Source: an uncultured Pseudomonadota bacterium
GTDB lineage: Bacteria > Pseudomonadota > Alphaproteobacteria > Rs-D84
Assembly (NCBI GenBank): GCA_902762295.1
Contig: CACWNX010000001.1
Span: forward strand, 62,001-126,000
Reading direction: 5' to 3'
Length of the DNA stretch: 64,000 bases
Shown here: positions 39,865 to 49,374 of the stretch, piece after piece
Layout of the letters: each line of letters begins with the position of its first letter
Position numbering within the stretch: the stretch's first letter is position 1
The notes under the pieces: generated by a model
Seen by the model: the letters and a program-made list of their open reading frames with translations, nothing else
Told to the model about the DNA's origin: nothing
Databases searched by the model: none
Program-made: the position numbers and the translations under genes

Positions 39865-42852
39865 TTAATTCAACAAGTTGATTGTTGTTTCATCTTCTTT
39901 TTCATCTTCCCATTCTTCACAATAATCTTTCTTTGTTTTCGCACATTTTGCCGTTGTCTTGATTTTTGTGCAAACACCGGTTTCATAGTTCGGAATAGTT
40001 ACAATTTTTTCTTTGTAATTCCATTGCCCAGATACCGAACAACCAACCATCTTGTTTCCATTTGCATCCGTTGTGTTTTCGCATTCCTCGATGTTTTCAC
40101 CACCCCTAGCAACTGGATTGTTGGCGGCATCAATACCCAAACCGACATCCGTACCAACACTGGCAACAATACCAACAGCAGTAGCAACACCGGTTATTTT
40201 AATCCCAGCTGCGGTAATTACCGCCCCCACCGGTCCGCCAAATATTGTTAACAATATCCCACCTGCAATAAGCGCACTCGCCACCAACCATTTTCCTGTA
40301 TTACTTGCCTTGGGGCCTTTTGTTACCGGCATACTACCAGAATCGCCATAGGCAATGCACATTTCCACCGCTTTCGCTTTTGCAGTTTCTTCATCTATTA
40401 TTTGTGCAACCTTTACTCCATCTTTCGCCATACGTTCCATTTCTTCATCATATTTTTTCATATAATTATCACGTGCATTTTTTAATGCAGAATTTGCGAT
40501 AATTTGACGCATCTGACTGGTTAAATTCGGGAAACGCGCATCTTCCTTTTTTAGCTCACCATTAGCATCAACCGTACCAAGATATGTTATATTATCATCT
40601 TTGCCACGCGTACCTTGGAATCGGCGCCCGGTCATACAATATTGAACCATTTGGTCCGACTCAATTGCATTTATCGCATTTTCAACCGCCGATGTTAATG
40701 CACGGATTTCTATTCCAAATACACGATCATGTATTGCTTTTTTGTCATCACTCGACAGGGTAATCTTTTGATTCTCTAGTGCCTGCAAATACTCATCCTC
40801 TGTTGTGAAACTAATTTTTGTTGCTGTTTCATAATCTTGGCGATTATTTCTTGGTTTAGTTGCTGTTTCATAATCTTGGCGATTATTTCTTGGTTTATCT
40901 GTATAACCTATATTGCCCCAATATACTAAACCGGACAATTTACCAACTAATCGGATGGCTGGGTCTTTCATTTCTTCTTTCGTATATGCATCTACAGAAT
41001 CTCGGCAATATTGTTCAGTTAAAGTGCCATCAGTACCTACGGTATTTTTGCAAATCTCGTACTTGAAACTTCTTGTACCGGCGCCGTTATCTACGACTAT
41101 GTCATCACAGTTTTCGGTACTGCCGCAGACGCGTATCATTGCGGCATCGGCGGCGCGCTGGCACGCGGTTAACATATTATTATCTATGTTCAAGAATATA
41201 CCTGTGGCTATTTCTGCCAAAGTATCTTGCACTGACTTTTTGTCATTTTTATACTCATAATAACACCCCGGCAGTTTGTCGTCTGGACACATTTTAACAA
41301 TCGTGTCCGTATCCAACCCTATACACTGGGTATAGTCTTTGCCACAACGGTCTTCGGATGTTAAACATTCTTTGAACTCACGCGTACATGAATCTACACG
41401 CATAGATGCCAAACGCGCACGGACATAGTCCATAATATTTGGAATACCGCCTTCACACGGATCTATTTCAACCTTGCATGCTGATCGCAATGTTTCTGGA
41501 CGTGTCAAACACATATCATACGAACCATCGGGGTCGTTCGGGTCCGTATTATCCCGGCATGCTTTCTGGAAACATGACGATATGTTTGCAATACACGATG
41601 TCCGCATATTTGATTCAACAATCAACTCCGCCGATTTGACCTGGGGCGCAACCTCGCGCAGGAAAGTATCCCAAACCTGGTCGCGCACATTCACGCATTG
41701 TTGCGTAACACCCATACACAATTCTTTTTTCCCCAGCAACACATCATATGTCGGCCCCGACAATTCGATATTCGAAAATGTGCCTTTTATGGTTTTCCCG
41801 TTGCCAGATTTATTATTCACCAAACCTTCACGCACAGACCATTCGACACAACCGGTAAAATCTTCGCCACAACCACCGGTTGTTTGCATACACTGTTTAA
41901 ATTGCACGGTGCATTGACCCAAATCATACTTGTTCGCATTGCGATATTGTTCTAATGCAGCCTCGCGCATGGCACCCTGGGCCGCCGCCAGTTTCTGGGC
42001 ACTTTGCGTGCGGCTCTGGCGCAGGCTGTTTTCATAGGCGGTACAATCGGAACGTACACGTTGTTGATACATCAGTTCCATCATCTTGGCCTGAGATGCG
42101 CATTCGGGAACCTGGGCATTACAGAGTTTCGCCGACACACGATACAACGCGTCTCCGGTTTTTCCCTCTATTGAAATTCCATCAGATGTAATTGAAAACA
42201 TATCTTCAACATCGGCATCAAAGTCAACCGCATTTATGTTCCATGCCGACAAATCCAACGATTGCCGTTTAGATTTTGCTTTTTCCGCATCTTTTTCAAT
42301 ACTTTTTGTAATTTCTTGGGTGCGCTTCATAACCGCATCGGCATCATCGCCCATTTCTATGCGTTCCACACCAACGGTCGCCATCTGATAACTCTGTTCA
42401 TCCAACGCCTGAATTTCCGCCAAAATCGCATCATATTCTGCGTTTTTATCACTGCATATACAGCGTCCACCATTGGCATTGTCTAACATACAGAATGAAT
42501 CCATACAGCCACTAAATTTTTCCCAGCAAACTTGGTCAACGGCGGTATTTTGTGCCGCGGCGGCAACCTTGGTTCCGGTACTGATTACGCTCTGTTTTGC
42601 GGCACGCGTTGCCGATGCCGGGGCAACCGCACTGCGCCCACGAACGGTTGACGATGGTGTTGATGTCGGCGCGCTGCGACTTGCCACCGCAGAACGCGTC
42701 GCAGTTTGTGATACCGTATTATTTGATGTAGCACTGCGGCCTGTTGCGGTTCGCGCATTGGATACCGATGCCGAACTACGCGCCGTTGGTACCGCACCAT
42801 ATGCATTAAATCCACTTAAAATTATCGCCGAAATCAGTAATATATTTTTCAA
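39865..42852 (-). CDS. Large exported cysteine-rich protein with repeated CX6C motifs (family member D)
   Basis: 995 residues from a TTG start (42852) preceded by AGGGGGGGAACC. Signal peptide (about 1-20), then a Ser/Thr/Ala/Arg-rich linker (20-105). CX6C units recur through residues 109-530: C109-x6-C116-x4-C121; C314-x6-C321-x6-C328-x6-C335; C379-x6-C386; C420-x6-C427-x4-C432; C489-x6-C496-x6-C503-x6-C510. The third Cys of the four-Cys units is followed by Gly. A hydrophobic Gly/Ala/Ile segment (about 900-950) probably inserts in or packs against a membrane. An exact 13-residue duplication lies at 40820-40897. An extended -10 (TGATAAAAT) sits upstream. No known family. Confidence 0.75.
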   Translation of the reverse strand: MKNILLISAIILSGFNAYGAVPTARSSASVSNARTATGRSATSNNTVSQTATRSAVASRSAPTSTPSSTVRGRSAVAPASATRAAKQSVISTGTKVAAAAQNTAVDQVCWEKFSGCMDSFCMLDNANGGRCICSDKNAEYDAILAEIQALDEQSYQMATVGVERIEMGDDADAVMKRTQEITKSIEKDAEKAKSKRQSLDLSAWNINAVDFDADVEDMFSITSDGISIEGKTGDALYRVSAKLCNAQVPECASQAKMMELMYQQRVRSDCTAYENSLRQSRTQSAQKLAAAQGAMREAALEQYRNANKYDLGQCTVQFKQCMQTTGGCGEDFTGCVEWSVREGLVNNKSGNGKTIKGTFSNIELSGPTYDVLLGKKELCMGVTQQCVNVRDQVWDTFLREVAPQVKSAELIVESNMRTSCIANISSCFQKACRDNTDPNDPDGSYDMCLTRPETLRSACKVEIDPCEGGIPNIMDYVRARLASMRVDSCTREFKECLTSEDRCGKDYTQCIGLDTDTIVKMCPDDKLPGCYYEYKNDKKSVQDTLAEIATGIFLNIDNNMLTACQRAADAAMIRVCGSTENCDDIVVDNGAGTRSFKYEICKNTVGTDGTLTEQYCRDSVDAYTKEEMKDPAIRLVGKLSGLVYWGNIGYTDKPRNNRQDYETATKPRNNRQDYETATKISFTTEDEYLQALENQKITLSSDDKKAIHDRVFGIEIRALTSAVENAINAIESDQMVQYCMTGRRFQGTRGKDDNITYLGTVDANGELKKEDARFPNLTSQMRQIIANSALKNARDNYMKKYDEEMERMAKDGVKVAQIIDEETAKAKAVEMCIAYGDSGSMPVTKGPKASNTGKWLVASALIAGGILLTIFGGPVGAVITAAGIKITGVATAVGIVASVGTDVGLGIDAANNPVARGGENIEECENTTDANGNKMVGCSVSGQWNYKEKIVTIPNYETGVCTKIKTTAKCAKTKKDYCEEWEDEKEDETTINLLN
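40820..40897 (-). repeat. Perfect 39-bp tandem duplication within gene D
   Basis: Two identical 39-bp copies (40820-40858 and 40859-40897), each coding in frame for KPRNNRQDYETAT. Flanking bases differ, so the unit is exactly 39 bp: a recent in-frame duplication. Confidence 0.9.
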
Positions 42853-43544: not shown

Positions 43545-43766
43545 CGATTACTCCTTTATTTTTTCTGCCCTGCCCCATTTGGGGGCGGGATTCCACCAAA
43601 TTTCGTGCCCCAAAATTTTCATTCCAGCAACACGCGTTTTTCTCATATAAACTGCCACTGTTAAGAAAACAATTTAGATGAGGTTATTTGGATGCGGTTG
43701 ACGGTTCGCAGTGTAGTAAACCTACATAAGAACCGACAATCGCGACAAGAACCCATATAAATTGCT

Positions 43767-44795
43767 TTATTTATAGGGGTCTTCGTATTTTTTCGCCAAT
43801 TCGGCAATATTTTCTGGTGGCCAACCTGGAACCTCCATCCCCAGGCCCAGCCCCATCGCCTCGAGTTGAATCTTGATTTCATTCAACGATTTGCGTCCAA
43901 AGTTCGGGGTCTTTAACATATCGGCCTCGGTCTTTTGCACCAGTTCGCCAAGCCAATTGATTTTGTCGTTTTTCAGACAGTTATTTGCACGAACCGACAA
44001 TTCCAGTTCATCAACCCGCTTCAACAATTTCGGATCAAATTGCAATGCATCCTTGGCGGTTTCTTCCTCGGTCGGTGCATTGATTTGTGCCGGGTCTTCA
44101 AAGTTGATAAATACGGTCAATTGGTCGGTCAAAATACGCGCCGCAAACGCAATTGCATCTTCGGGTGTGACACTGCCGTTTGTTTTGACGGTCAATTCCA
44201 GTTTATCAAAATCAGTTGACTGGCCTACACGGGTTTCCGAAACATTGCTTGCCACATTCAGAATCGGCGAGAATATTGAATCAACCGGAATCACACCCAA
44301 CGGCAAACCATCGGCATGTGCGGTTGCCGGAACATATCCGCGACCGGTCCCCAACGTGATTTCCATATCCAATGTTGCACCCTTATCCAAATTGCAAATC
44401 TCGGCATCTGGATTCATAATTTCAATTGCCGATGTGCATTCAATCATACCAGCTTTGACAACCGCAGGACCCGTCGCACGCAATGTGACTTTGTGTTGCC
44501 CTTCGGAATTTGCCTTGAAATAAACACCTTTCAAATTCAATAAAATATCTGCGACATCTTCGTGAATACCCTGGATGCTGGAAAATTCGTGCTGAACCCC
44601 ATCGATTTTCACATACAGTGGTGCACAGCCCTGCAACGACGACAACAGCACACGACGCAACGCCGTCCCCAGTGTTAAACCGAAACCTTTTTCCAGTGGT
44701 TCCGCAACCAGTGTCGCCATATTTGGATTATGTTCATCCGGGATAATATTTAACTTTTTTGGCTTGATTAAAGTCATCCAATTTTTTTCAATCAT
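43767..44795 (-). CDS. rpoA: RNA polymerase alpha subunit
   Basis: 342 residues. Alpha-NTD assembly motifs ([31 protein letters not shown]) and the C-terminal promoter-contact domain ([28 protein letters not shown]) are intact. AAAAGGAA precedes ATG 44795. In most bacteria rpoA follows rpsK directly. Here 3.6 kb with three exported-protein genes intervenes, and rpoA has its own promoter at 44869-44897. Confidence 0.97.
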
Positions 44796-44868
44796 TATGT
44801 TTTCCTTTTAGCTTAGTTTATCATTTTCGCCAATCGGCTGCGCACAGTTTCTGCCCACGCGCCCGCGA

Positions 44869-44897
44869 ATTTTATTACTATTTTTTACAAAAGTCAA
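44869..44897 (-). promoter_or_regulatory. Dedicated promoter of rpoA-rplQ
   Basis: Minus strand TTGACT (44897-44892), 17 nt, TAAAAT (44874-44869). It leaves a leader of about 65 nt before the rpoA ATG. Confidence 0.72.
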
Positions 44898-44960
44898 GTG
44901 TAATAGTGCGGTCCCCTTTACGATGTGAAGGGGACGGAAATAATAATTACGGTGAAAAAT

Positions 44961-45653
44961 TTAATACGGATACCTGCTTTGCCGATATTTCAAATCGTAG
45001 TCACTCTTTGCCATTCTGACCTTAACCTGCAAATATTGCACACACTTTTTAATATTATTTTTATTATCTATATTCTTACATTCTGTTGCACCGGTATCGA
45101 TAGTATATGTGCTCATTATTCCCATATCGTTTTTCAATTGTTTTCTTGCATTAGTGGTATCACTGTCCGCTGCCGCCGCAATTTTTGCCAGATTCCGCGC
45201 AAAACAATCATAAACATTCGCCTGATCCATAACATCATAACAATTTTCTGCATTTGCCAATCCGTTGTTATTTACCGCCGAACCCGACGAATAACCACCA
45301 CCATTTGACGATGAATTGTTGCCGGTAAGTACCTCTATTTTACTGGTTAAGACGGCCTTTTCTAACTGTGTCTTGAATCGTTTAATCATAGTATTCAATA
45401 TATCATATTGCTCTTTTAACTGTTGTGCGATAACAGTTGATTTCAATGCAATAATATCGTTCATTTCGGCGGTGCGATTGGCAGATATCGGATTTGTCAT
45501 GTCGCCGACATTATATGCATGCACGCTGCACAGTGCAAACGCCGGCGAAAAGTATTCATAGCCATCACATGCCGACATATCATCGCCACGCGCCGGCATC
45601 ACCAACATAGTCAGTGCAAAAATAACATTAAAAATTTTCATTTTCATTTGCAT
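44961..45653 (-). CDS. Exported helical protein, unrecognised (gene F)
   Basis: 230 residues. Signal peptide (about 1-23), a helical segment (about 60-105, IIALKSTVIAQQLKEQYDIL), a Ser/Gly/Asn linker, then a Cys-containing helical C-terminus (ENCYDVMDQANVYDC; CKNIDNKNNIKKC). The start overlaps the stop of gene E by one base (TAATG), so the pair is co-translated and probably works together. Size and helix content recall periplasmic VirB5/TrbJ-like subunits, but I see no family signature. Part of the insertion between rpsK and rpoA. Confidence 0.68.
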   Translation of the reverse strand: MQMKMKIFNVIFALTMLVMPARGDDMSACDGYEYFSPAFALCSVHAYNVGDMTNPISANRTAEMNDIIALKSTVIAQQLKEQYDILNTMIKRFKTQLEKAVLTSKIEVLTGNNSSSNGGGYSSGSAVNNNGLANAENCYDVMDQANVYDCFARNLAKIAAAADSDTTNARKQLKNDMGIMSTYTIDTGATECKNIDNKNNIKKCVQYLQVKVRMAKSDYDLKYRQSRYPY

Positions 45654-47626
45654 TATAAATTCCTACAAGTCCCCGAGACACCATCTCCACTCCACATACA
45701 TCCTTCATCTTCATAATGATCATTACATACAGACGGCATTTTATAAACAGAGCAACCTGAACCTGTAAGCGCCGGCGCTGGCGCAGCACTTGTAATATGA
45801 GAGTTAGAACCATTACCAGAAGGCATATCCGTACAATAATTCAAAAACCAATAACAACCATTATCCGTGCAAGATTTATTCGTTGTATATTGAGTACAAA
45901 TTGAATTATTCTGCTTTCTTTTCTTGGCTGGCTGACAAGAACCGTTTTTCCATTCACAGAAATCATCCCCATCGCATAAATAAGAAACTGTATATGCCGC
46001 ACAACTCGCCCATCCTATTTCCAAATCAACACTATTAGCCCTGCTATACCCCTCGCCTTCGCTGATGGTTGCGCCACCATCCGAATTTATCATTCGGATT
46101 TCACTGTCAAAACGCCACTTTTTACAATCGGATGGCAACTTCTTGGTATTCGCCGCGGTTTCCAGTTGTTTATAGCGGTTTGATAATGGTTCCACCGCAC
46201 AATATTGGACACCACAATTCAAATCACCACCAACCGCATTTGATGTATTATTACGACACGTCACATACGAATCTTGATTCACCAAGTCACGCAGCGTTTC
46301 AATATCAACCTTGGCCTGTTTATTGCGCCCGCGGAACGCAATCACATCCGATGCACACGCAACCTGGGTTGACCCCGTCAGACCCGAATTTGCATCAATC
46401 CATTCACGGTATATCGTGCTTTTTTCATTCAGTGTTCCAACCAAGCGACAATGCGGTTGCCGCTTTGCGACCGTACCATCTTCGCCGGTCACAACACGTC
46501 GATAACAATTTGAACTGTCGTCACCATAGCAAACACAATCGCCTTCGGTTTTGTTTGTTTCTTCCCTGCTGCACCGGTCGCAAATATACTTTCCCCACAT
46601 ATTACACGAATCCGACAGCAACATTATAACATCACTGACATCGATACCAACCGTCATCGCCAGCATCAGCGCTTCGTACATATTGTCAATAACTTCTTCG
46701 TACGGGTCAAAAAATTCATTTGCCAAATCTTTAAACTTTTTAACACGCCGCGGGCCGGTACAACTGTTTGCCGATGCATCACACCCGGCGTATTCAAGGA
46801 TATTGTCCAATGTTGTTTTTAATTTTTTCATCTGTACCATCGCATCTTCAACCGCGGTTTCAATCTGACCGCCCATTTGTTCACGCACCAAAATATCGGC
46901 ACTGATTCCATTTTTCGCCGCCAACTGTTCGGCAACCGACAGCCCCTCTAGTCCCGCAATCACCGCACCCGTATCACCGGTTGAACTCGTTGCGGTGGTC
47001 GTCGCCGCGGCGGCACTACGCTGTTCCGCCAATGCGTTTTGAATCTGGGCATTCTGGGTTTCCGATTGGGCGCGCATTTGTTCCTGCATCGCCGCCATAG
47101 ATTCCGCCATCTGCGATTGCATTTGCGCCATTTGCGATTGCATCTGCTGTATCTGGGCATTACTCTGCGCCGCCGCGGTGGCATTTGCCTGGGCGGTTGC
47201 TTGGGCCTGGGCCATTGCGATTGCGTTTTCTTGTTCTATTATCTTGGCATTTGACTGTGCAACAATTTGCGCCGATATATATTCAATTAAATCATTTCCA
47301 TATTGTTTGCACGCATTATTTGAATTTACACAGCCGGCAACAATTGGGCGGGCGACCGCCATATCGCTGCACGAACCAGATGAACACTTTGGTGTTGCAC
47401 ACCGCAGAATCACCGCGTTACAGTTTCCAAAATTCGCCGCCGCCGTCGTTGATGACGGCATGTTGCCACGCATATTCATCATGGAATTCCACTGGTTATT
47501 ATTCATCGCACCGGTGCCATTATACGCGGTCAGATTTGAACCTGCCGTTGTTGCAACATTCGCCACCGCCGGCGTAATAAACACAGCGCACACCACACCA
47601 CACAAGAAACGCAATGAAACTTTCAT
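45653..47626 (-). CDS. Exported coiled-coil, cysteine-rich protein (family member E)
   Basis: 657 residues. Signal peptide (about 1-22). CX6C units C69-x6-C76-x4-C81-x4-C86 and C99-x6-C106. A long Gln/Ala/Met coiled coil (about 115-205, e.g. MQSQMAQMQSQMAES). A Cys-rich centre (about 350-500). At the C-terminus three units follow CxxY-x(5)-C...C-x-W...C (CAAYTVSYLC..CEW; CTQYTTNKSC..CYW; CSVYKMPSVC..CMW). The same unit occurs in gene B. AGAAGAGAG precedes the ATG. Probably extracellular or periplasmic; function unknown. Co-translated with gene F downstream. Confidence 0.73.
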   Translation of the reverse strand: MKVSLRFLCGVVCAVFITPAVANVATTAGSNLTAYNGTGAMNNNQWNSMMNMRGNMPSSTTAAANFGNCNAVILRCATPKCSSGSCSDMAVARPIVAGCVNSNNACKQYGNDLIEYISAQIVAQSNAKIIEQENAIAMAQAQATAQANATAAAQSNAQIQQMQSQMAQMQSQMAESMAAMQEQMRAQSETQNAQIQNALAEQRSAAAATTTATSSTGDTGAVIAGLEGLSVAEQLAAKNGISADILVREQMGGQIETAVEDAMVQMKKLKTTLDNILEYAGCDASANSCTGPRRVKKFKDLANEFFDPYEEVIDNMYEALMLAMTVGIDVSDVIMLLSDSCNMWGKYICDRCSREETNKTEGDCVCYGDDSSNCYRRVVTGEDGTVAKRQPHCRLVGTLNEKSTIYREWIDANSGLTGSTQVACASDVIAFRGRNKQAKVDIETLRDLVNQDSYVTCRNNTSNAVGGDLNCGVQYCAVEPLSNRYKQLETAANTKKLPSDCKKWRFDSEIRMINSDGGATISEGEGYSRANSVDLEIGWASCAAYTVSYLCDGDDFCEWKNGSCQPAKKRKQNNSICTQYTTNKSCTDNGCYWFLNYCTDMPSGNGSNSHITSAAPAPALTGSGCSVYKMPSVCNDHYEDEGCMWSGDGVSGTCRNL

Positions 47627-47705
47627 CTCTCTTCTGATATTCTATTGTATCATAAAAAGAATATGTTTAAAAGAAAAAAATAGAGTGTTTTATTATTATT
47701 TAATA

Positions 47706-47733
47706 TAAAAAAATGCGGGGCAAATACCCCGCA
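47706..47733 (-). terminator. Terminator of the small CxxC protein gene
   Basis: Stem TGCGGGG / CCCCGCA, 6-nt loop (47714-47733). On the minus strand it is followed by TTTTTTTAT. Confidence 0.82.
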
Positions 47734-47758
47734 CACTAACCATTAACTAACAACTAAA

Positions 47759-48076
47759 TTAATAATTGCAGCGATTACATGTGTTATTACGAACAACACG
47801 ACGTTCTGAATATGTACCGGCTGGTTCATAAACGGTGACCGGACGATAGACCTGGTAATGATCAATCACTTCGGTGTGTGTTTTAACACGAACCGGCTGG
47901 GCACATGAATTGCATGTTGCAACATATTCTGTGCGTGGTTCCGCATACGCAACCGTTGTGTTATAACGAACACGGTTTGTGTATGTTTCTGTTTCCTGGT
48001 ACAGACCGCCATCCGATGCATTTGCACCAAACGCAACCAATCCAGCAATTACAGATGCTAAAATTGTTTTTTTCAT
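47759..48076 (-). CDS. Small exported protein with two CxxC pairs
   Basis: 105 residues. Signal peptide (MKKTILASVIAGLVAFGANA). The mature part of about 85 residues is rich in Tyr, Thr, Val and Arg in alternating beta-like patterns, with CNSC (about 55) and a C-terminal CNRC. Possibly a metal- or disulfide-stabilised envelope protein. AAAGGGT precedes the ATG. Strong promoter (48105-48132) and its own terminator: monocistronic. No family recognised. Confidence 0.7.
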   Translation of the reverse strand: MKKTILASVIAGLVAFGANASDGGLYQETETYTNRVRYNTTVAYAEPRTEYVATCNSCAQPVRVKTHTEVIDHYQVYRPVTVYEPAGTYSERRVVRNNTCNRCNY

Positions 48077-48104
48077 ATTTGACCCTTTTGGTTATTCGTC
48101 AAGA

Positions 48105-48132
48105 ATTATAGGACGCAAAAACCCGTTGTCAA
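48105..48132 (-). promoter_or_regulatory. Promoter of the small CxxC protein gene
   Basis: Minus strand TTGACA (48132-48127), 16 nt, TATAAT (48110-48105): near-consensus. Confidence 0.82.
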
Positions 48133-48376
48133 GATATATTTATGATTTTTTACTCACCCACATCAACAACGGGGAAATATCCAAAAACCACAAACAATTA
48201 CTTACTATTAGTATAAAATCGGTTATATTATCCCTGCACCATAGTTAATCTTATTCTGGTATATAATACATGCGTTCTATCCATATATTTCCATTATTAC
48301 TATCGGTTTTTTGCATTATACCATAATTTGAAAAATAAAAAAAACAAATTAATCAAAAACTATTGCAAAAACATTA
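48133..48376. other. Non-coding gap between the insertion and rpsK
   Basis: 244 bp of A/T-rich DNA between the small CxxC gene promoter and the rpsK terminator. I see no gene or RNA in it. Confidence 0.5.
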
Positions 48377-48404
48377 AAAAAATCCGCCAATTGGCGGATT
48401 TTTA
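48377..48404 (-). terminator. Terminator directly after rpsK
   Basis: Stem AAAATCCGCC / GGCGGATTTT with loop AATT. On the minus strand it is followed by TTTAATGTTTTT. It ends the secY-side transcript before the inserted genes, so rpoA cannot be read from it efficiently. Confidence 0.85.
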
Positions 48405-48407
48405 AAA

Positions 48408-48785
48408 TTACACGCGACGAACCTTCTTAGGTCTGCATCCATTGTGCGGAATACGCGTTGTGTCGGTAATACTCTGGACAACCAACCCGGCGTTTGCCAA
48501 ACCACGAACCGCCGATTCACGACCCTGACCGATACCACGCATCAAAACATCAACCGTTTTCATACCCATTTCGGCAACTTTTTTGCCAACCGCATCGGCA
48601 ACAACCGTCGCAGCATATGGTGTAGATTTTTTTGCACCCTTGAAATTATTTGCGCCCGCGGTTGCCCATGTCAAAACCGCACCCGACTGGTCGGTAATTG
48701 TGATACGAGTATTATTGTTTGTCGCAACGACATGCGCAATGCCATGCGATACTTTTTTTACAACTTTCTTTTTATTTATTGCCAT
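48408..48785 (-). CDS. rpsK: 30S ribosomal protein uS11
   Basis: 125 residues. Core HVVATNNNTRITITDQSG, MRGIGQGRESAVRGL and the C-terminal IPHNGCRPKKVRRV are diagnostic. Platform protein near the 3' end of 16S rRNA. It follows rpsM; a terminator stands immediately downstream where rpoA would normally be. Confidence 0.97.
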   Translation of the reverse strand: MAINKKKVVKKVSHGIAHVVATNNNTRITITDQSGAVLTWATAGANNFKGAKKSTPYAATVVADAVGKKVAEMGMKTVDVLMRGIGQGRESAVRGLANAGLVVQSITDTTRIPHNGCRPKKVRRV

Positions 48786-48849: not shown

Positions 48850-49227
48850 TTATTTACCCTTGACCGCAGAACCGGCGACAACGATGCGTTTACCTTTGCG
48901 GGTACGTGCATTTGTCTGGGTGCGTTGACCGCGAACCGGCAGACGATTACGATGACGAATACCGCGATATGTTTTTAAATCCTGCAACCGTTTAATATTC
49001 ATCGCAACTTCGCGGCGAACATCACCTTCTACCTTGAAATTCTGTTCGATATAGTTAGAAATTTTAACAACTTCTTCGTCCGTCAGATCTTTCGCGCGCA
49101 GACCATCTTTCAATTTCAAATCTTTACAGATTTTTGCAGCCCGGGTTGGACCGATGCCATGAATATATTGCAGTGCGGCCTCAATACGTTTTTCTGTCGG
49201 AATATTTACACCTGCTATACGTGCCAT
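48850..49227 (-). CDS. rpsM: 30S ribosomal protein uS13
   Basis: 125 residues. [19 protein letters not shown] and the C-terminal [20 protein letters not shown] are classic S13, a head protein contacting the P-site tRNA and 50S. Preceded by its own likely promoter (49326-49353) and an about 90-nt leader with two hairpins. adk and rpmJ, often found here, are absent. Confidence 0.97.
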
Positions 49228-49325
49228 TTTTCTTTTTCCTTTTTATTTTTATCTCTGGGACAATTTTGCCCCGCCCTGTTTTTCCGGCGCTTATTCGCCG
49301 TTCAAACTATTAACTTTGCCGAATA

Positions 49326-49353
49326 ATTTTATATAAATTATCGCAAAAGTCAA
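49326..49353 (-). promoter_or_regulatory. Probable promoter of rpsM-rpsK
   Basis: Minus strand TTGACT (49353-49348), 16 nt, TAAAAT (49331-49326), just after the secY stop. Confidence 0.6.
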
Positions 49354-49374
49354 ATTCTGTTTCGCGCAACCAAA

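Follow-up and report, generated by a model that had tools for sequence, protein, structure and literature searches.

Repeated opening of the alpha operon at the rpsK-rpoA junction and a conserved rpoA leader hairpin in Candidatus Enterousia

The gene order rpsM-rpsK...rpoA-rplQ of the alpha operon rarely varies among bacteria, and the way in which core operons such as S10-spc-alpha break up has usually had to be deduced from isolated events far apart in time. In this study, a 64,000-nucleotide stretch of contig CACWNX010000001.1 (the window) was analyzed, in which three genes for exported proteins lie between rpsK and rpoA. The question raised by this locus was how the operon came to be opened. 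The source genome (836 kb, 4 contigs) belongs to Candidatus Enterousia, order Rs-D84, Alphaproteobacteria. Its near relatives are metagenome-assembled genomes (MAGs) from gut and rumen, including Candidatus Enterousia excrementavium (L096). Enterousia was placed in Rs-D84 in a report of order-wide genome reduction (PMC12306168). The papers searched named no cultured strain of Enterousia. The results suggested that the alpha operon was parted at one junction into two transcription units, that a hairpin in the rpoA leader came first, and that the gap then became a neutral landing site. The probability of this explanation as a whole was put at about 0.7.

The locus reads on the minus strand as rpsM, rpsK, a terminator, the CxxC gene, E, F, the rpoA promoter, rpoA, and rplQ. 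rpsK (S11; 48408..48785, PF00411 match) is followed directly by a conserved intrinsic terminator (48378..48403), a hairpin of 11 pairs with a T-run. The CxxC gene (47759..48076) is an open reading frame (ORF) for a small exported protein of 105 aa. Its predicted promoter, TTGACA-16-TATAAT (48105..48132), matches the sigma-70 consensus at 12/12 positions, and its terminator (47713..47734) was found by site scan. The ORF of E (45653..47626) encodes an exported Cys-rich protein of 657 aa with a coiled-coil-like stretch; it overlaps by 1 base (TAATG) the ORF of F (44961..45653), which encodes an exported protein of 230 aa. rpoA (43767..44795, PF01000 match) is preceded by the promoter TTGACT-17-TAAAAT (44869..44897), assigned by its genus-wide conservation. 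rpsK and rpoA are adjacent and transcribed together in a standard alpha operon; in the window they are separated by 3.6 kb with a terminator and a promoter, and the pairs rpsM-rpsK and rpoA-rplQ are both retained. The initial annotation had described the three exported-protein genes, the rpsK terminator, the CxxC gene with its own promoter and terminator, the E-F pair, and a dedicated rpoA promoter; all were confirmed in place on the minus strand. It had also considered an assembly error, which is unlikely because the order rpsK-CXXC-E-F-rpoA recurs in independent MAGs (L072, L074, L080/G031, L186/G127, and L187/G078).

The spread of the split was investigated in MAGs and other assemblies by using S11 (PF00411) and RpoA (PF01000) as markers, with spacing measured from domain to domain. 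Both genes were located in 139 genomes of the genus and lay on the same contig and strand in 101. The split was present in 94 of these 101, with distances from 650 bp to 26.5 kb, and 7 were contiguous (252–437 bp); the median over all 101 was 1679 bp. rpoA was inverted nearby in 6/139 genomes, and the two genes were on different contigs in 32/139, which form an ambiguous group. Full separation was seen on long contigs in G016, G032, and G071. All stages of invasion and separation were therefore seen in one genus: contiguous, with insert, inverted, and fully separated. In several close relatives (L076, L077, L079, and L082), rpoA-rplQ has been turned around as a block with respect to rpsK and has kept its promoter and leader intact, which is natural evidence for a self-contained unit. 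Split species also occur in sister genera of the same family (g18, g19, g24, g27, and g29), while others (g21, g22, g23, g25, and g26) are closed. In the five remaining families of the order the genes are contiguous, with gaps of 37–87 bp in readable loci, so the arrangement is not universal in the order. In sister-genus loci L158, L164, L172, and L174, an otherwise short rpsK-rpoA gap is filled by long imperfect inverted repeats.

Only one junction of the alpha operon, rpsK|rpoA, has opened, and the neighboring junctions hardly vary. Among fetched genus loci, gaps above 500 bp were found in 0/79 for secY-rpsM, 0/79 for rpsM-rpsK, and 3/111 for rpoA-rplQ; for rpsK-rpoA they were found in 65/77, with 4 more loci inverted. 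On a tree built from rpsK, rpoA, rpsM, and secY, the open or closed state of this junction needs at least 10 changes, of which about 7–8 are forced by well-supported branches. The initial annotation had assumed one insertion, to be dated by comparing rpsK-rpoA intervals in relatives. The comparison revealed instead a site occupied repeatedly across the genus and in some sister genera.

The transcription signals at both edges of the gap are conserved. A terminator 3' of rpsK was found in 62/69 distinct loci, with a median start 15 nt after rpsK; the reversed-sequence control gave 17/69. In nearly all of the 92 distinct genus loci, the four inverted ones included, the promoter TTGACW-17-TAWAAT is located about 50–86 nt upstream of the rpoA start. 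In the window region, promoter-like and terminator-like sites were not far more numerous than in shuffled sequence, and the two signals were judged real because they are conserved across genus loci. The contiguous species L048, L053, L084, L140, and L141 carry both, so the transcriptional division of the operon is independent of the inserted genes. As read from these predicted signals, the alpha operon is transcriptionally divided throughout the genus, with or without inserts. Transcription had been said to be re-engineered on both sides of the insert; it is reorganized on both sides, but it was not built around the insert, since insert-free species of the genus carry the same signals. Weak Rfam matches (rimP, L20_leader) overlap the rpsK and CxxC terminators (48338-48434 and 47701-47786) and are most likely chance hairpin matches.

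The most unusual feature of the locus, which the initial annotation missed, is a conserved hairpin in the rpoA leader (44808..44833), identified by alignment and covariation. It has the stem UUGGC/GCUAA and the loop GAAAAURAUAAACUAA and adjoins the Shine-Dalgarno (SD) sequence AAGGA (44803..44807). The sequence GAAAATRATAAACTAAG was found 15–20 nt before the rpoA start codon in 92/92 distinct genus leaders, and the 16-nt loop was invariant in all of them. Among distinct sequences of the genus and family, the loop-adjacent stem pairs 12-29 and 11-30 were standard in 92/92 and pair 10-31 in 91/92, with 4, 2, and 4 standard pair types at 12-29, 11-30, and 10-31, respectively; the closing pair occurs as C-G, U-G, U-A, and G-C. 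In an alignment of 30 sequences, all 5 stem pairs changed on both sides. Stem covariation there was 0.524, compared with 0.261 for shuffled alignments (0/500 as high), and sliding the pairing partner destroyed the signal. Stems as different as UUGGC/GCUAA (window), UUUUGAU/AUCAAAA (g23), CAGU/ACUG (g29), and AUAGU/ACUAU (g21) were observed. A second hairpin at the 5' side of the leader (44840..44862), identified by leader comparison and folding, is variable and missing from some species.

The motif occurs once in the window genome at 0–2 mismatches and at about 1 copy per genome in the genus. It is present in most sister genera, not in g26, and is absent from the other families of the order apart from one chance-level match with 2 mismatches. 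A covariance model of the hairpin gave nothing convincing in 385 genomes of the class outside the genus; a match in L180 lay within coding sequence and was attributed to chance. No Rfam match was obtained at the hairpin, and Alpha_RBS was not matched at 44800-44840 even at E<=1. An upstream ORF in the leader was considered and rejected, as many species have no start codon there (e.g. GGCGAAAATAATAAAC). The hairpin has the hallmark of a ribosomal leader RNA: its structure covaries, and it lies in the 5' leader of a ribosomal protein operon. Judged by its alignment, the rpoA leader hairpin is a previously undescribed conserved RNA element, and translational control of rpoA would be its putative role.

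Sister genera provided information on the order of events. In G190, G200, and G203, the hairpin is present at rpsK-rpoA gaps of only 44–55 bp, which could accommodate neither a terminator nor a promoter. Contiguous operons that already have the hairpin, with gaps of 44–166 bp, occur in the basal genera g22 and g23 and in parts of g28 and g29; the deepest genus, g26, is contiguous without it. Since the hairpin occurs in contiguous operons of sister genera, it is probably older than the split. It is likely that the hairpin came first, the promoter and terminator next, and repeated invasion, inversion, and separation last.

The following mechanism is proposed. The hairpin would have arisen within the still contiguous operon and placed rpoA, perhaps with rplQ, under separate translational control; an RNA-binding protein would probably recognize the loop and block ribosome access. 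Together with the later promoter and terminator, it would remove the cost of lost co-transcription, and the rpsK-rpoA junction would thereby become a neutral landing site. Exported-protein genes of the core genome, E-F among them, could then enter by local rearrangement, and their products would need no functional link with RNA polymerase. The odds are about even that the hairpin gave the alpha subunit its own translational control in this one alphaproteobacterial family and that it preceded and permitted the repeated break-up at rpsK|rpoA.

Several observations weigh against this explanation. The activity of the promoter and terminator is a prediction from sequence. The hairpin loop matched 16S/23S rRNA-operon regions, as mimic or antisense, no better than shuffled loops did, so the usual argument from ribosomal protein mimicry is unavailable, although such likeness to rRNA is not shared by all ribosomal leader RNAs. 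Predicted hairpin energies were weak (about −3 kcal/mol, z about −1). In the minimum-free-energy fold of the window leader, the GG of the SD sequence pairs with an upstream CC, but the mean probability of SD pairing (0.73) lay within the values for swapped flanks (0.69, maximum 0.74); sequestration of the SD as a species-specific feature was rejected on this control. The proposed sequence of events depends on parsimony and on two basal genera, g22 and g23; it is likely but unproven because some contiguous species may be re-closures.

The genes in the gap were also compared. By inspection, the CxxC, E, and F proteins each start with a Sec-type signal sequence. The CxxC family is the commonest resident (34/79 distinct intervals); its genes are frequently located immediately upstream of rpoA and on the opposite strand. 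In the clade of the window the gap contains E-F; elsewhere it holds genes for different Cys-rich exported proteins, and some genes in it are non-exported. A crude count of signal-peptide ORFs suggests enrichment of exported proteins in rpsK-rpoA intervals (80/132, vs 12/33 elsewhere in the window and 2/22 in the ribosomal protein block). No family was found for CxxC, E, or F in Pfam, NCBIfam, or PDB sequences beyond weak matches, and structure prediction was uninformative (pLDDT 56 for CxxC and 37 for E). The E profile matched 140/156 genus genomes, nearly always in single copy. In most of the 12-row clade of the window, E is located between rpsK and rpoA; it adjoins rpsK in the unrelated G090, lies downstream of rplQ in G018, G034, and G082, and is elsewhere in the remaining genomes, about 300 kb away in some. 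As E is a single-copy core gene, the exported-protein pair moved here and a foreign origin is not needed. E-F is a relocated core pair, not one newly acquired from outside as the initial annotation had implied.

Three other explanations were weighed against these data. If a cassette of exported genes had entered one ancestor, with the terminator and promoter evolving afterwards, as the initial annotation took it, the contiguous species would be later cassette deletions. The frequency of the CxxC gene, which is also in the gap of sister genus g24, would allow an old resident, and invasion followed by separation is known for operon pairs (PMC8046335). However, the hairpin already stands in the contiguous operons of g22, g23, and parts of g28 and g29, the tree requires at least 10 changes, and gap contents are mostly unrelated between clades; such an invasion-first history is unlikely. 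A site-specific integration hot spot for mobile elements or genomic islands after rpsK would fit a single junction with variable content and a few non-exported cargo genes, such as a DNA methyltransferase-like gene in G029. It is very improbable: the window interval holds no recombinase or integrase and no flanking direct repeats, its base composition matches its surroundings, E is a core gene rather than cargo, and phage-family matches of the inserted proteins in PHROGs were weak and confined to the signal peptide or a short stretch.

Genome reduction alone, by which small genomes tolerate random rearrangements and the rpsK-rpoA break is nothing special, agrees with the reduced genomes general in the order (PMC12306168) and with species in which rpoA is on another contig or 10–26 kb away. 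However, the same genomes show a sharp contrast between adjacent junctions, of which only rpsK-rpoA has opened, and the other families of the order remain contiguous at the same genome size. This explanation was considered improbable, though slightly less so than the hot spot.

The split operon was compared with known systems. In Escherichia coli, S4 represses the alpha operon, and regulation of the rpoA cistron is reportedly independent of S4 (PMC10931766). The Enterousia locus has the genes of the bacterial alpha operon (rpsM-rpsK-rpsD-rpoA-rplQ) in the same relative order where contiguous, rpsD being separate in alphaproteobacteria. Unlike in E. coli, rpoA-rplQ is a unit of its own with promoter and leader, and it is split off, inverted, or moved. 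In the large operon cluster of Gammaproteobacteria and Bacilli, operon pairs were broken by invasion and then separation, and the spc-alpha pair was linked in every genome analyzed (PMC8046335). As there, few genes invade, rearrangement then parts the blocks fully, and inserts mostly do not come from distant transfer; the Enterousia break differs in lying inside the alpha operon, recurring within one genus, and being uncoupled even without an insert.

Lineage-specific ribosomal leaders are known; among them are L17 leaders upstream of rplQ and S4 leaders in rpsD-rpoA-rplQ operons (PMC7247131). The Enterousia element is likewise a lineage-restricted, covarying 5'-leader RNA of a ribosomal and RNA-polymerase operon adjoining the ribosome-binding site. 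It differs in being one small hairpin before rpoA whose loop is invariant and for which neither an Rfam match nor a likeness to rRNA was detected. It is also not an L17 leader, as it lies upstream of rpoA and not directly of rplQ, which has a separate conserved leader. Like Alpha_RBS (RF00140, the S4 pseudoknot), it is an alpha operon RNA with a presumed regulatory role, but the pseudoknot sits before rpsM and the hairpin before rpoA.

No paper found in the open-licence literature described the Enterousia split or the rpoA leader. A recurrent break inside the alpha operon with a new rpoA hairpin is a variant not described before, and the general process is akin to known cases. Here, one genus displays all break-up stages side by side at one junction, and the junctions next to it serve as internal controls. 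These data suggest that regulatory uncoupling preceded invasion, which is relevant to the question whether co-regulation holds operons together. The hairpin is also a new candidate element through which synthesis of the RNA polymerase alpha subunit might be controlled directly.

Other features flank the junction. rpsM (S13; 48850..49227, ORF with tblastn orthologs) and rpsK form a unit with the predicted promoter TTGACT-16-TAAAAT (49326..49353), found by site scan; the upstream k-mer TTGACTTTT is kept in 56/66 genus loci. A sub-threshold Alpha_RBS match lies just upstream of rpsM (49195-49266; 24.5 bits, E 0.06). No adk separates secY from rpsM, the next gene (49228-49374), and an adenylate-kinase-like gene is about 4 kb upstream of rpoA in G011 (L067). 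rplQ (L17; 42963..43544, ORF with orthologs) is the second gene in the rpoA unit. Its conserved genus leader contains the k-mers GGGCAGAAA and AAAGGAGTAATC upstream of the start (43545-43766) and is possibly a second ribosomal leader. The rpoA-rplQ gap also holds an inverted-repeat element, TTATGTAGG..CTACACTGCG (43707-43729; 0 expected by chance), and similar structures, ..TCATGTAC..GTACACTACG.., occur 3' of rpsK in several species without a simple terminator (e.g. L093, L059). A Cys-rich exported protein of 995 aa is encoded 3' of rplQ (39865-42852) and holds an exact 13-residue tandem duplication (KPRNNRQDYETAT); members of its family are found next to rplQ in genomes across the genus, frequently as tandem copies and in either orientation.

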